Shown: positions 30,884 to 36,746 of the stretch, piece by piece
Layout of the letters: each line of letters starts with the position of its first letter
Position numbering within the stretch: the stretch's first letter is position 1
Assembly (NCBI RefSeq): GCF_001650195.1
Contig: NZ_LXYR01000007.1
Span: forward strand, 1-64,000
Direction: 5' to 3'
Length of the DNA stretch: 64,000 nucleotides
DNA from: Phormidesmis priestleyi BC1401
GTDB taxonomy: Bacteria > Cyanobacteriota > Cyanobacteriia > Leptolyngbyales > Leptolyngbyaceae
Made by a program: the position numbers and the translations under genes
The notes under the pieces: model-generated
What the model was told of the DNA's origin: nothing
Seen by the model: only the letters and a program-made list of their open reading frames with translations
Databases searched by the model: none

Positions 30884-31021
30884 TCTCGTTAAGGTGTGTA
30901 GCAATGAACCTATCACATCGATCGTGCAGGGAAAGTCCTCATATTCAATGGTTTGATCAGCATAGAGAGGTTCGATGCTGCGACAGTTTAGGGGAATGAC
31001 CCAACGAGAGAATTTACTCAT
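30863..31021 (-). CDS. Small ORF (52 aa) coupled to the methyltransferase
   Basis: ATG at 31021 overlaps the end of the methyltransferase gene by 8 nt, so reinitiation is likely. The product, beginning MSKFSRWVIPLNCRSIEPLY and including TIEYEDFPCTIDVIGSLLH, is protein-like in composition. The frame also runs 21 nt into the end of the opposing phosphotransacetylase-family gene. No family recognised; conservation is untested. Confidence 0.5.
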   Translation of the reverse strand: MSKFSRWVIPLNCRSIEPLYADQTIEYEDFPCTIDVIGSLLHTLTRSRRFRF

Positions 31022-32075
31022 ACCTGTTGATTAATTGATTCGTGAACGGAGCTTGAGCCTTTACGGTTGAGGCGAGTTGTGACTGCATTGCGTTAGCCCG
31101 GACAGCACGAAACATCCCAAATCGACACAACCCAGTGCCAAACGCTAGCCGCATCAGGAGCAGCGTCGGCACTTCTCGCAGCGATTTGGTCAAACCCGCT
31201 AACCCAAATTGCACCAGTCCGCTCGGTCGAGCGATGCCCTGCCAGATGGAATCGAGCCAGGAAGGAAGGGTTGGTTCTGTCCAGTCTGCGGTGGTCACGT
31301 CTCCCTCAACCCATCCCGTTGCCTCTAAAAGTTCAGCAAATTCCTCAATGCTGGCAAAGGCGGGATGAGACCACTGATCGAGCAGTTGCCGCATCACAGG
31401 TTTTTCCCAGACGTTGAGCGGGATTTGGCGATCGTCTCGCTGATTCCAATCCGCTACCACCAGCACCCCGCCCGGCTTGAGGACGCGCAGCAGCTCTCTG
31501 GCAAAAATGGCTTTGTCGGGCATATGGGGACCTGCCTCGATCGACCAGACCACATCAAAACTTTCATCTGGGAAAGAGAGCGCCATTGCATCATCGACCT
31601 GAAACTGTGCGGTCAGTTCCTCAGACGTAAGTTCCTGTGCCCGTTTAACCTGCTGGGGGCTAATCGTAATTCCAGTCACATCAAACCCATAATCGTGTGC
31701 GAGGATGCGACTGCTTCCCCCAATGCCACAGCCGACATCTAGGACGGTTGTGCCGGAGGAAAGGCGATCTAAACCACCCCACTGCACCATCTCGTGCACA
31801 AAGTCAGATTTCGCGGTCAAAAAATCCTTACGGCGAGGCGGTGAGCCGTAATGACCCAGATGAATATGGTCGCCCCAATAAAACTCTAAAATGCCGTCTT
31901 TTGTCCATTGGTCATAGGAACGGGCAACAGAATCAGACGATTGATAACGGCGAGCGGTGATTAAATACAGCCCGATGCTCACTGTTAGCAGAAGGAAAAC
32001 GACAAGTACAAAAAATAAACTCATGAGGACAAAGCTTGACTCAATTGTGGGAGGAGCATACGGCAGTTTTGCCAT
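31014..32075 (-). CDS. MPBQ/MSBQ methyltransferase (Sll0418 type)
   Basis: SAM-dependent enzyme methylating 2-methyl-6-phytyl- and 6-solanesyl-benzoquinols on the way to tocopherol and plastoquinone. After an N-terminal membrane anchor (residues about 18-41) come ARRYQSSDSVARSYDQW, EFYWGDHIHLGHYG, SAM motif I VLDVGCGIGGSSR, and WSIEAGPHMPDK. The C-terminal part (REVPTLLLMRLAFGTGLCRF) matches Synechocystis Sll0418 closely. The start is uncertain: ATG 32075 or ATG 32024, nearer the membrane segment. A small coupled ORF follows. Confidence 0.9.
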   Translation of the reverse strand: MAKLPYAPPTIESSFVLMSLFFVLVVFLLLTVSIGLYLITARRYQSSDSVARSYDQWTKDGILEFYWGDHIHLGHYGSPPRRKDFLTAKSDFVHEMVQWGGLDRLSSGTTVLDVGCGIGGSSRILAHDYGFDVTGITISPQQVKRAQELTSEELTAQFQVDDAMALSFPDESFDVVWSIEAGPHMPDKAIFARELLRVLKPGGVLVVADWNQRDDRQIPLNVWEKPVMRQLLDQWSHPAFASIEEFAELLEATGWVEGDVTTADWTEPTLPSWLDSIWQGIARPSGLVQFGLAGLTKSLREVPTLLLMRLAFGTGLCRFGMFRAVRANAMQSQLASTVKAQAPFTNQLINRYE

Positions 32076-32201
32076 TCGTTAGCGAAGCGGGACGCGATCG
32101 CGTCTTTTGCTCGGTGGCAATCGAGAGGATTCACTTGCAGCAGTGAACTTTATGGCACACCTGCTGCATCTCGTGCTTGGAATCTGAGTTGCATAGGTGA
32201 C

Positions 32202-32366
32202 TTATTCTGCCCTGACCCCAAATATTTTGTCGCTTCGGCTTCCAGTGGAATTGCTTGAGCGATCAGCGGCTTGGGGCGATTGAGAAAAGCCAATGACTGC
32301 AAAACACAGAACGCTGAGAGCGCAAGATGCGCCTAGTAGCCCAGACCATTTAAACATTGAAAACAT
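32202..32366 (-). CDS. Small secreted/membrane protein (54 aa), second ORF after the B12 riboswitch
   Basis: ATG 32366 lies inside the end of the preceding 55-aa ORF in another frame, with AGGAG about 10 nt upstream, so the two are probably coupled. The product has a hydrophobic N-terminal segment (about residues 8-28) with signs of a signal peptide ending in SPQAA, then a short polar tail rich in Ser. No known family recognised. Confidence 0.5.
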   Translation of the reverse strand: MFSMFKWSGLLGASCALSVLCFAVIGFSQSPQAADRSSNSTGSRSDKIFGVRAE

Positions 32367-32517
32367 GATGAGAGACTCCTATGAACAGGAGGGTAAGTGC
32401 TGAAATAAACCAGACAATGAGTGACCACGGCACACCGTGAAGAATTGCTTGGGCTGGCATTGATGAAACGAATCGATCGGTTCGCTGCCATCGTGAAACC
32501 TGCATAGAGGTTCTCAT
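32350..32517 (-). CDS. Small single-span membrane protein (55 aa), first ORF after the B12 riboswitch
   Basis: ATG 32517 has GAGG 8 nt upstream. A charged N-terminus (residues 1-19) is followed by one membrane helix, VPWSLIVWFISALTLLFIGV, and a short tail with His-His (SHHVFNV). It is the first ORF after a cobalamin riboswitch, so a role in cobalt or cobalamin handling is likely. Size and single span recall CbtB cobalt-transporter subunits, but the CbtB C-terminal histidine/cysteine motif is not present, so I do not name it. Confidence 0.55.
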   Translation of the reverse strand: MRTSMQVSRWQRTDRFVSSMPAQAILHGVPWSLIVWFISALTLLFIGVSHHVFNV

Positions 32518-32529
32518 TCTATACCTCGC

Positions 32530-32690
32530 AGATGAAACAGTGTGGACTACACATCGGCGGGCATTCTGACTTAGCGCGCGCGATCGCTCTCATGACAGTT
32601 GCGGGACAGCGCCGGACTTGCACCAGACTTTCCCCGTTTCCTCTGGCGACTGCTCCTCGTCAGAACGGATAGATTATTTTAGTACCATAT
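32530..32690 (-). ncRNA. Cobalamin (B12) riboswitch
   Basis: The minus strand carries the class I cobalamin core: GGGAAAGTCTGGTGCAAGTC, followed by CGGCGCTGTCCCGCAACTGT (about 32603-32641), the classic conserved B12 box. It is preceded by GAGGAAACG and followed downstream by AGTCAGAATGCCCGCC, the L5-side segment. Cobalamin binding would normally switch off the genes that follow, here two small ORFs whose first ribosome site is within about 10 nt of the element's end. Boundaries are approximate. Confidence 0.9.
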
Positions 32691-32729
32691 CAGCGCCGAA
32701 GGTCAATGAACTACTGAATGCTTATGCAA

Positions 32730-32852
32730 CAATACTCCGAACATTTTTTGAGACAGAGGCTGAAACCCGCATCCTTACTTAGCCTTTGACCTAAGTAAGG
32801 ATGCTGAACCCCGCATTCGATCTTTTGAAATTTAAAGCTATTCGGACTGTTG
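32730..32852. mobile_element. MITE-like element, CAATACT family copy 3
   Basis: Left end CAATACTCCGAACATTTTTT, right end ATTCGGACTGTTG, like copies 1 and 2. Inside is a hairpin, CCTTACTTAG/CTAAGTAAGG (about 32772-32799). No target duplication was found. It abuts the next element at 32856. Confidence 0.65.
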
Positions 32853-32855
32853 ATC

Positions 32856-33173
32856 CTAAGGATCGTGGATTAAATAACCTGTAAGACTTGTGAGCGTCTT
32901 CTGCCCTCCTCACGAAGTGGGGCAAGCCCTCGCCGACCCTTTTCCCCAAGGAGAAGCAGGGCTAATTTAAGGTCGAGAAAGAAAATCTGTACCCTTTATC
33001 TTGCGTTAAGGCATCATTCTGATGCTGAACGAAGACTCAAGCTTGTAGATTTTATCTGGTGACAACTAATCAGCCCTGCAAGGAGAAGGGAGCTAGAGTC
33101 ATGTTCCCTAGCCTTGGGGAGAGGGCTAGGGTGAGGGTAAGAAGTTGCACTTTAATAAATCCACGTTCCTAAG
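32856..33173. mobile_element. Inverted-repeat element CTAAGGATCGTGG, carrying a nested insertion
   Basis: The left end (CTAAGGATCGTGGATTAAAT) and the complement of the right end (CTTAGGAACGTGGATTTATT) form an imperfect terminal inverted repeat. The inside has the CTTGCCCCACTTCGTGA-type and CTCTCCC palindromic repeat material. A 122-bp element (32957-33078) is inserted into it. The left end also occurs at 18874-18900. No gene is seen from here to 33308. Confidence 0.6.
32947..33088. mobile_element. 122-bp MITE, copy A, with 10-bp target duplication
   Basis: Element 32957-33078, ends CAGGGCT...AGCCCTG, non-coding. CAAGGAGAAG flanks it on both sides (32947-32956 and 33079-33088). The CAGGG terminus and a 10-bp duplication are hallmarks of the ISAs1 family. 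The copy at 36615-36736 is identical over all 122 bases, so both moved recently; the transposase would have to be supplied from elsewhere. Confidence 0.9.
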
Positions 33174-33308
33174 AGACTTGCGAGAAAAATCTCTTGCTGT
33201 CGTTGTCCATCGGTTTCGACATCGCTCAACCTACCAAAGCGCTGACGAGGACTGAGCAATCCACAATACTTCCATCACTCTGCAATTCCTAAAGGCGTGT
33301 GAGTTGCG

Positions 33309-35216
33309 TCAGGTCAACACTTCTGCATTTTGACGCGATCGGATCTCTAAATAGACCAGCAGGGCGTTGATGTCTGCGGGGTTTACGCCACCAATGCGAG
33401 TCGCTTGCCCGATCGTCATCGGTTGCACCTTTGCCAATTTCTCTCTTGCTTCTTTTGACAGGGTTGTAATGGCGGCGTAATTTAAATCTTTGGGCAGTTT
33501 GCGATGTTCTTGTCGGGCAGTTTGATCGATCTGATGCTGCTGGCGTTGAATGTAACCCGAATATTTGATGTCAATTTCTGCGCCTTCTTTTTCAGCCCGA
33601 TCGAGCGCACCATTTCCTAATCCATGTTGGTCTAAATCGCCATAGTGAAATCCAGAACGGCGTAAGAGTTCTGCCAGAGTGATTGATCCTTTGATTGCCT
33701 GTTGAGTATTTTTAGCAATCGCTTTGCCAATCTCATCGTGTTCTTTAACGCGAGTCTCGTGCAATCGCTCTTTTTCAGCCGTAATGTTTTCTTGTTTGGT
33801 AGCGTAGAGTTGCCAACGGCGATCGTCAATCAGTCCAATCTCTCGACCCAAGGGTGTGAGACGCTGATCGGCATTGTCTGAGCGGAGTAGCAAGCGATAT
33901 TCCGATCGAGAGGTCAGCACTCGATAAGGTTCGCGCAAATCTTTGGTACACAAATCATCAATCAGCGTCCCGATATAGCTCTGCTCACGCGGAAAGACGA
34001 TCATCTCCTGATGACGACAGAATCGAGCCGCATTCACGCCAGCCACAAGTCCCTGAGCCGCCGCTTCTTCATAGCCTGTGGTGCCGTTAATCTGACCTGC
34101 ACAAAACAGCCCATCCACTTTTTTGGTCATCAAAGTGGGATAGCACTGCGTCGCGGGTAAGTAGTCATAATCGACTGCATAAGCGGGACGAAGCATTGCG
34201 CAATTTTCTAAACCAGGGAGCGATCGCAGCATTTGTAGCTGAATTGTTTCTGGCAATCCGGTCGAGAATCCTTGAATATAAAGCTCTGGAATGTCGCGTC
34301 CTTCTGGCTCGATAAAAATCTGATGGCTTTCTTTATCGGCAAAACGGACAATTTTATCTTCGATGCTGGGGCAATAGCGCGGACCTTTAGAATCGACCCA
34401 GCCGCCATACACAGGCGAGAGGTGAAGATTTTCTCTGATAATGCGATGAGTTTCAGCCGTGGTGCGAGTCAGATGACAAGGAATCTGCTCACGCTCGACC
34501 CACAAATCGGGATCAAAACTAAACCAGCGAACATCGGTATCACCGGGCTGCGGTTCGAGTTGAGAGAAGTTGACAGAGCGCCGATCGACTCTTGCAGGGG
34601 TTCCAGTTTTCAAGCGCCCCGTCTCAAATCCCATTCGATTTAGCGTCTCAGTCAATCCGACTGCCGCAAACTCTCCGGCTCGTCCTGCTGCCATTGATTT
34701 GTTGCCGACCCAAATCATTCCGCCCAAAAATGTCCCGGTGGTTAACACAACGGCTTTGCATTCAAATGCCACCCCAAAGTAGGTTTGCACTCCGATAATC
34801 TCATCGTTTGCGCCCAAGACGAGATCCGTCGCCATGCCTTCACGGATGGTTAAATTCTCCTGATTTTCGACTACGCCTTTCATCACGGCTGCATATTCGC
34901 GTTTATCAGTTTGCGCTCTTAGTGCCCACACCGCCGGACCTCGTGACGCATTGAGAATTCGCTTTTGTAAGTAGGTTCGATCGCTGACCTTACCGATCTC
35001 GCCGCCCAGCGCATCGACTTCATGCACAAGCTGCGACTTTGCCGGACCGCCGACCGCTGGGTTGCAGGGTTGCCACGCGATTTTATCGAGGTTGAGCGTC
35101 AGCAGTAACGTGCGACAGCCAAGCCGAGCGCTTGCCAGTGCTGCTTCACAGCCAGAATGTCCGGCTCCGACGACGACCACATCATAAGCATCAATAAAAT
35201 CGATCGGGGCGTTCAT
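33309..35216 (-). CDS. mnmG: tRNA uridine-5-carboxymethylaminomethyl(34) synthase, FAD subunit
   Basis: MnmG (GidA) works with MnmE to modify the wobble uridine of tRNAs. 635 aa from ATG 35216 ([11 protein letters not shown]); an ATG at 35270 would add 18 residues not typical of the family. FAD-binding [20 protein letters not shown] lies at the N-terminus, then [30 protein letters not shown], the conserved [11 protein letters not shown] and [17 protein letters not shown], and the C-terminal helical MnmE-binding part. Complete and ordinary. Confidence 0.95.
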
Positions 35217-36005: not shown

Positions 36006-36604
36006 TCAGCACATCAAAAAATTCCTTAAAAGTGAACCAAAATGCCTCACAAAACATAAAAGAATCTTCTCGACGCTTGAATGTCCCATTGACGGAGGAT
36101 GTGATTTTCACCTTCAAGCAATGTTGCACAGTGCTGCTTGCTTACAGTAAATACACCTTGATTCTATTTAGAACCCTCATGTCAGAATCCACCACTAGAA
36201 CCCTCACTCAGAACCCCCACCGGAAACCTGACCCTCAGCATCCCCTAGATGATCGCCAACGCCCTCAACATCACTCCTGGTACTGAACTCCAATTCGAGA
36301 TCGTTGACGGTAATATCCTGCTCAAACCTCAAACGCATCCCCAATACACCTTAGATGAACTTCTAGAAGGGATCACCCCCGAAACCATTCACAGCGAAAT
36401 TGACTGGGGCAACCCCGTTGCCCAGCGTTCCTACTCCCGTCAGGTATCCTGTTTTCTCTTAGGGTTAATCGTGCTGCCGTCGCTCCTCATCCGGCAGCAA
36501 CCGCTGACGATGTCGCCCCTTGTCCCTCAACTGACGCTTTCACTCTCATTCAACTCTTCTTAACAGCTTCACCGCAAACCTACACCTGTAAGCCCCTAAA
36601 TCCC
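36006..36604 (+). other. Region between lexA and repeats, with degraded coding sequence
   Basis: Apart from the MazE-like remnant below, no gene is supported. Two open frames here (36002-36286 and the 3' half of 36249-36563) lack protein-like character outside the remnant. Confidence 0.4.
36218..36425 (+). pseudogene. AbrB/MazE-like antitoxin remnant
   Basis: The frame reads LTLSIP, TAG, then MIANALNITPGTELQFEIVD, GNILLKPQ and YTLDELLEGITPETIHSEID, ending WGNPVA. This is the MazE pattern of an AbrB strand-helix followed by the tail that binds MazF. The stop at 36246 stands where MazE has a Lys (IPK), and the start of the AbrB domain is not recovered. After GNPVA the sequence is unlike the family and no MazF follows. 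The piece could still be translated from ATG 36249. Confidence 0.5.
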
Positions 36605-36746
36605 CCAGAATGGGCAGGGCTAATTTAAGGTCGAGAAAGAAAATCTGTACCCTTTATCTTGCGTTAAGGCATCATTCTGATGCTGAACGAAGACTCAAGC
36701 TTGTAGATTTTATCTGGTGACAACTAATCAGCCCTGCCAGAATGGG
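36605..36746. mobile_element. 122-bp MITE, copy B, with 10-bp target duplication
   Basis: Element 36615-36736, base-for-base identical to 32957-33078. CCAGAATGGG is duplicated on both sides (36605-36614 and 36737-36746). Removing the element and one duplicate rebuilds a CCCCTAAATCCCCCAGAATGGG palindrome pairing with GGGGGATTTAGGGG, showing that it landed in the loop of another repeat. Repeat material continues to about 36850, ending with GATTCAGCAACGCC. Confidence 0.9.

Follow-up and report, generated by a model that had tools for sequence, protein, structure and literature searches.

Results

A cobalamin riboswitch lies upstream of two short ORFs and an intact methyltransferase gene

The 64-kb window, by which we mean the whole stretch of DNA analysed here, holds a single Rfam match above the gathering score, a cobalamin riboswitch (RF00174) on the minus strand found by cmscan (E 3.3e-06). 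The match covers model positions 1-189, that is, the full aptamer, with a score above the curated cut-off (Table 1), and the riboswitch, which an earlier note had recognized from the letters of this DNA, is genuine. Two short ORFs follow it, both as that note had described them: ORF1, with a GAGG ribosome site, and ORF2, which has an AGGAG at 32380-32376 and overlaps ORF1 by 17 nt. Beyond 518 nt of broken genes follows the first intact one, which encodes a methyltransferase. Altogether, most of 30890-32685 consists of B12-operon parts, and among these a single gene is intact.

Table 1. Features of the locus, listed from the riboswitch downstream
Feature	Position	Strand	Evidence or remark
Cobalamin riboswitch aptamer, RF00174	32539..32685	-	cmscan, 38.5 bits vs cut-off 31.5
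Expression-platform motif CATCTGCGAGGTA with cbtB ribosome site GAGG (32527-32524)	32522..32534	-	exact match before relatives' cbtB
ORF1, 55 aa, cbtB relic	32350..32517	-	codons 1-36 (32517-32410) in frame, remainder out of frame
cbtB continuation in another frame (VYFSTYPPVH)	32382..32410	-	tblastn and three-way alignment
ORF2, 54 aa, gene 2 start	32202..32366	-	out of frame from ~32263 on
gene 2 continuation in another frame	32153..32263	-	stop at 32152-32150, where homology ends
SAM-dependent methyltransferase, intact, 335 aa	31014..32021	-	Pfam Methyltransf_11, E 4.6e-24
DUF7676 (PF24724) relic, truncated	30890..31021	-	50% identity to residues 2-45 of the L179 homologue, E 3.6e-9

The aptamer core GCTGTCCCGCAACTGT is unaltered in the window, and relatives such as L001, L064, L067, L069, L087, and L089 share the platform motif exactly before cbtB. 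Core and motif were both present within our mismatch limits in 26 of 85 scanned sequences, which comprised the window, four family loci, and 80 gene 2 loci, with two loci present twice. Judging from complementarity, the TGCG of the motif would pair with the CGCA of the core, consistent with a loop-loop interaction that blocks the ribosome site, a mechanism by which riboswitches act. The window aptamer (38.5 bits) scores below those of L064 (61.9), L069 (59.8), L067 (54.7), and the one other RF00174 match in the same genome (53.1; contig C28, 45410-45576). We considered a drifted aptamer structure and dropped it, since the 12 non-standard pair marks in the window lie within those of the same four relatives (12, 8, 14, and 8), and the lower bit score alone remains. 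In the Nostoc-type cbtB loci L073-L081, the ribosome-site motif is mostly retained (as GCGAGGTACAAAATG or a near variant) with no aptamer found nearby, as if the switch had been lost while the platform stayed.

A scan of 31950-33320 found no sigma-70-like promoter, and so none before the methyltransferase either. Terminator-like sites in the scanned region numbered 2, compared with 1.5 in shuffles, and a weak one lies at 32323-32311 on the minus strand, between the riboswitch and the methyltransferase. A 140-nt interspersed repeat occurs in the window at 32943-33082 and 36601-36740 (96% alike), with more copies on contigs C3, C17, C40, C119, and C131.

The short ORFs match cbtB and gene 2 in changing frames

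Since 32 ORFs of at least 30 aa overlap 31000-33600, ORF length by itself is no evidence of a gene, and we turned to homology. We use "gene 2" as a name for the second gene of cyanobacterial cbtB loci, which encodes a membrane protein of ~390 residues. By tblastn, cbtB residues 1-38 lie at 32517-32404 and residues 38-52 at 32410-32366 in a different frame. ORF1 residues 1-38 are 60.5% identical to the cbtB of L064, and the continuation, in frame -2, is 53% and 60% identical over 15 residues when the cbtB genes of L063 and L065 are the queries. Gene 2 is likewise split between two frames, with residues 1-33 at 32363-32265 and residues 39-78 at 32272-32153. ORF2 is 59% identical to L064 gene 2 over residues 2-33 and the continuation 72.5% identical over residues 39-78; the latter is also matched by a gene 2 profile built without the window (E 6.4e-6). 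Frame-aware alignment scores reached 95 against L065 cbtB and 220 against L064 gene 2, compared with maxima of 42 and 55 in 20 shuffles each. The homology of the ORFs to intact cbtB and gene 2, across changing frames, is above chance.

A three-way DNA alignment with the intact loci L067 (Aphanothece hegewaldii) and L069 (Acaryochloris sp. CRU_2_0) revealed deletions of 4 nt between 32411 and 32410, 71 nt between 32382 and 32381, and 23 nt between 32264 and 32263. As a fourth lesion, gene 2 homology ends after residue 78, at 32153, leaving ~310-320 of about 390-400 codons missing. ORF1 consists of the first 36 cbtB codons plus an out-of-frame stretch, and ORF2 of ~33 codons from the start of a gene of ~390 codons plus an out-of-frame stretch. 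With the 71-nt deletion, the CbtB tail (DTVHSLRHHTLGVSCH in L067) is lost together with its stop codon and the greater part of the spacer, so that the His-rich C-terminus ending in CH is deleted in the window and present in relatives. The His-His tail of ORF1 arises from reading TCTCATCATG of the gene 2 leader in the cbtB frame, and the AGGAG before ORF2 is the ribosome site of gene 2 itself. A frame-aware protein alignment had presented this HH tail as the His tail of CbtB, which we rejected since the DNA alignments show gene 2 leader after the 71-nt deletion. Neither ORF matches a Pfam or NCBIfam family above its curated cut-off, and ORF1, as a broken copy, has no match to Pfam CbtB (PF09489, cut-off 27 bits).

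The relic DNA as a query matched 2 of 42 order genomes at E ≤ 1e-6, its own and G038, and the broken forms of ORF1 and ORF2 were not found in the other 41. Short ORFs of this kind, for which the earlier note had proposed to look behind riboswitches in other cyanobacteria, do not recur there; relatives carry a CbtB of ~63 aa with a ~390-aa partner. When ORF1 alone was searched in the family, it gave one clear relative, G038 (53%, E 1.8e-10), with all other matches weak. No cbtB or gene 2 was seen in the ORF lists of two weak matches, L005 and L006, while those in G032 (E 0.19), G023 (E 0.73), and G014 (E 0.36) adjoin gene 2 directly upstream. Because of that placement we regard these three as real cbtB genes, and since real cbtB genes appear at E 0.19-0.73, the single-sequence search is too weak for judging conservation and we used the gene 2 alignment instead.

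The dN/dS ratio, a check that had been proposed for the ORFs, was computed for cbtB codons 1-36 and came to 0.20-0.25 for the window against relatives, a little above the 0.14-0.17 among relatives. This suggests that the decay is recent; less likely, the short ORF1 would still be partly constrained. The broken copy is known from one genome, a draft assembly of 213 contigs, although sequencing error would not yield lesions of 23, 71, and ~1000 nt. We hold with high confidence that ORF1 and ORF2 do not form a small-protein unit and are accidents of gene decay in cbtB and gene 2. The undescribed small cobalt or cobalamin transport or sensing pair of the earlier note gives way to fragments of two longer genes, and its second guess, the remains of a CbtB-type gene, proves right for ORF1. 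It had also reckoned with a frameshifted known transporter, which applies to ORF1; the full-length counterpart of ORF2 is annotated as a hypothetical protein.

Intact cbtB and gene 2 form a recurrent pair in cyanobacteria

The same genome possesses an intact riboswitch-cbtB-gene 2 copy on contig C28, in which a CbtB-type ORF ending in HHTLTVSCH precedes the gene for a 407-residue membrane protein. This order also occurs in G006, G032, and G038. The locus of G038 (L064), the closest family relative, reads riboswitch, insertion-split cbtB, gene 2, p193 (a gene for a ~193-residue protein), a gene on the opposite strand, and a C-terminal methyltransferase relic. Since the cbtB of G038 is split by an insertion, the operon is decaying independently there. 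We read the ORF of this insertion (L064:2196-2790) by eye as a transposase of the IS200/IS605 type.

Gene 2 was found at 105 places in genome contigs and on 15 plasmid records, one of them holding a fragment, and it is present in 14 of the 41 family genomes, in one (G011) as a 29-residue fragment only. Among the best 80 of the 105 places, a regular expression for the CbtB motif detected a CbtB-type ORF within 900 nt upstream at 69; the other 11 include the insertion-split L066 (Lyngbya sp. HA4199-MV5) and L125, which has just 275 nt upstream. At the same 80 loci, nhmmer found an aptamer within 1 kb upstream of gene 2 in 22. A cmscan of 16 of these loci (15 without an nhmmer match, plus L072), whose genera we take to be Nostocales, yielded one aptamer, in L072. 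With these counts we rejected the idea that gene 2 is generally preceded by an aptamer. Both plasmid loci examined (L228 and L229) have one.

The CbtB proteins of L067 (31.2 bits), L069 (33.8 bits), and G006 (30.2 bits) pass the PF09489 cut-off of 27, while the C28 copy (24.8 bits) falls below it; for NCBIfam TIGR02459, the C28 copy (18.1) and that of G006 (22.1) are far below the cut-off of 64.4. On a Pseudanabaena plasmid, NCBI annotates the homologue as "CbtB-domain containing protein" and gene 2 as "hypothetical protein", the name that gene 2 bears in both annotated records examined. Two intact copies of gene 2 matched no Pfam or NCBIfam family above cut-off. The predicted fold of the L067 copy, modelled from a 24-row alignment, has four long helices and two beta-sandwich domains (pLDDT 81.4, pTM 0.73). 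Among its 50 best PDB matches, query-normalised TM-scores run from 0.17 to 0.23; matches this low and this generic do not allow a functional assignment, which we dropped. CbtA (PF09490) matched none of the 41 family genomes at E ≤ 0.001, including that of the window, in a search that gave a match in Haloferax volcanii among 14 control genomes. No paper linking CbtB to a cyanobacterial partner gene was found in the literature searched, which lay outside most subscription journals.

The methyltransferase recurs behind cobalamin riboswitches

The start of the methyltransferase at 32021 is that of its relatives, with an earlier in-frame ATG at 32075 in the ORF list, and we presume the protein to be of the cyanobacterial Sll0418 type (2-methyl-6-phytylbenzoquinone methyltransferase). 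A close orthologue is found in 24 of the 41 family genomes, with 73-84% identity in the 23 others than its own; 15 of the remaining genomes hold only a paralogue of 35-41% identity, and two have no match at E ≤ 1e-40. Against three relatives its dN/dS is 0.05-0.08 at a dS near saturation, values that speak for a gene under strong constraint.

Of the 25 places of the orthologue in the family, counted after leaving out a second fragment in G010, 9 (in 8 of 24 genomes) have a cobalamin riboswitch on the same strand no more than 5 kb upstream. Random placement would give ~0.03 of 25 places, by an estimate that ignores the kinship of the genomes. One of the nine, in G032, is a sub-threshold aptamer of 24.3 bits that ends 33 nt before the matched stretch. 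The other 16 places, some near contig ends, have no such riboswitch. Across the phylum, 50 of 194 genomes gave a match at E ≤ 1e-110, and we examined the upstream stretches of 40, leaving out two from the same family, five at 55-58% identity, and three others. Here a same-strand riboswitch was present at 5 of 40 places and none within 5 kb at 35, one of which has a divergent riboswitch. All three plasmid regions examined, out of the six closest matches (76-80% identical), have a same-strand riboswitch upstream, one of them with an intervening transposase gene.

The genes between riboswitch and methyltransferase vary, from a p193-like gene (L170) or a p193-like gene with HupE (L171) to metE with two genes for ~150-aa proteins (L173), where DUF1636 and CobW follow the methyltransferase. 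The loci with the orthologue behind a cobalamin riboswitch, far above chance in number, are the window, L170-L177, L191, L192, L196, L197, L201, and L230-L232, and several also carry metE, cobW, DUF1636, btuB-like, or hupE genes. In the same literature search we found no paper tying the methyltransferase to cobalamin.

Other elements of these operons recur as well. The L179 homologue of the DUF7676 relic matches PF24724 with 125.1 bits (cut-off 27) and is itself cut by the locus end, while the relic ORF in the window has no Pfam match of its own; in L179 and L194, DUF7676 stands behind a btuB-like gene. Two adjacent proteins of ~150 residues, encoded for example at L171:3478-4382, recur in the cobalamin-riboswitch operons L171-L174 and L177-L179. 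In L171 the two are ~30% alike and have no Pfam match, and in L175 the second is a remnant. The metE behind the riboswitch is fragmentary in G012 and G016 (L175 and L178), which are further cases of a riboswitch left before a broken gene, and pieces of metE also occur in L192 and L201.

Discussion

The locus is almost certainly a decayed B12-responsive operon, as its sequence and those of its relatives indicate. Its ancestral order would have been riboswitch, cbtB, gene 2, and then the methyltransferase, with p193 probably in between. Since G038 has a methyltransferase relic behind gene 2 and p193, the order in the window is best explained as the same operon minus most of gene 2 and p193. Working copies elsewhere encode a single-helix protein of the CbtB type whose tail is rich in His and Cys, together with a membrane protein that contains two beta-sandwich domains. 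Four lesions broke both genes in the window, and the riboswitch core and the ribosome-site motif that it should control remain unaltered. With core and motif in this state, the RNA may still bind B12 and would then block the ribosome site of a dead cbtB fragment. Regulating a broken gene would make sense only if something downstream benefits, and any useful effect might now be exerted, via a shared mRNA, on the intact methyltransferase that lies 518 nt further on, a step that we propose tentatively.

How the riboswitch came to outlast its genes can be read in several ways. It may have been kept for controlling the methyltransferase, with the cbtB and gene 2 remnant as an untranslated or briefly translated leader, so that B12 would lower the methyltransferase mRNA through lost translation and transcript decay or Rho. 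The recurrence of same-strand riboswitches upstream of the orthologue in the family, the phylum, and the plasmids, the low dN/dS of the methyltransferase, and an aptamer with no more non-standard pair marks than its four relatives all favour this. A long polycistronic mRNA of Anabaena is reportedly under the control of a cobalamin riboswitch (PMC10878165), which makes such downstream control plausible. However, the 518 nt of broken genes with their weak terminator-like site, the low aptamer score, and the majority of family and phylum places without a same-strand riboswitch within 5 kb count against methyltransferase control, and we consider it possible while somewhat doubting it. Evenly balanced in our judgement is the opposite account, that the riboswitch is, like cbtB, gene 2, and DUF7676, a relic on its way to being lost and that the methyltransferase runs on its own promoter. 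The four lesions, the truncated DUF7676, the reduced aptamer score, and the intact second copy of the operon fit a dead locus, whereas an unaltered core and platform motif, a non-standard pair count that is not raised, and a strongly constrained methyltransferase do not. That no sigma-70-like promoter was found before the methyltransferase counts only weakly against this account, since none was found anywhere in the scanned region either.

ORF1 and ORF2 might also be new small membrane proteins that arose from the old genes and have a function. In ORF1 the ribosome site and the first 36 CbtB codons are preserved, and its open frame includes a hydrophobic stretch, and ORF2 retains the start of gene 2 and its first, helix-forming stretch. 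Yet ORF1 lacks the CbtB tail and owes its HH to the gene 2 leader, ORF2 lacks everything beyond about residue 33 of gene 2, the broken forms were found in none of the other 41 order genomes, and neither ORF has a Pfam or NCBIfam match above the curated cut-off, all of which makes new small proteins highly improbable.

Taking up methyltransferase control once more, the riboswitch could have outlived its original genes with the methyltransferase as its lasting client. The enzyme might then be a B12-repressed cyanobacterial function that we have not found described, possibly a B12-independent stand-in when cobalamin is short, although we think this rather unlikely. Client classes of cobalamin riboswitches are reported to include transporters and isozymes of B12-dependent enzymes (PMC3766115), and the methyltransferase as such an isozyme would be the boldest reading left. 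That this conserved enzyme sits behind cobalamin riboswitches far above chance makes it testable whether, and why, B12 represses a methyltransferase, of the quinone type or otherwise, in cyanobacteria. The analysis also closes a false lead, in that the pair of small membrane ORFs that looked attractive behind a riboswitch is in all likelihood debris of a longer operon.

Compared with known systems, the window aptamer resembles other RF00174 riboswitches in its match to model positions 1-189, its conserved core, and its ribosome-site motif, but it scores below four relatives and leads into pseudogenes. Of intact gene 2, the first ~78 residues are recognisable, whereas ~310-320 codons are missing. 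The methyltransferase is like the Sll0418 type in its Methyltransf_11 domain and its orthologues across the phylum, while none of the functions that the earlier note had named would account for its repeated occurrence behind cobalamin riboswitches. CbtAB has been listed among the predicted cobalt transporters and occurs mostly in Proteobacteria and Actinobacteria (PMC2667541), and 43-fold repression by B12 is reported for the cbtBA genes of P. denitrificans (PMC8123684). Intact ORF1 orthologues share with CbtB (PF09489/TIGR02459) a small size, a single hydrophobic segment, and a His-rich C-terminus that ends in CH, but their neighbour is gene 2, not CbtA, and the window gene is broken. The cbtB-gene 2 pair is thus like CbtAB in its small subunit, in part in its riboswitch, and presumably in its cargo, and differs in the absence of CbtA; from the family assignment and the riboswitch context, it most likely takes up cobalt under B12 shortage. 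The partner of CbtB in these cyanobacteria is an unnamed membrane protein of two domains in place of CbtA.
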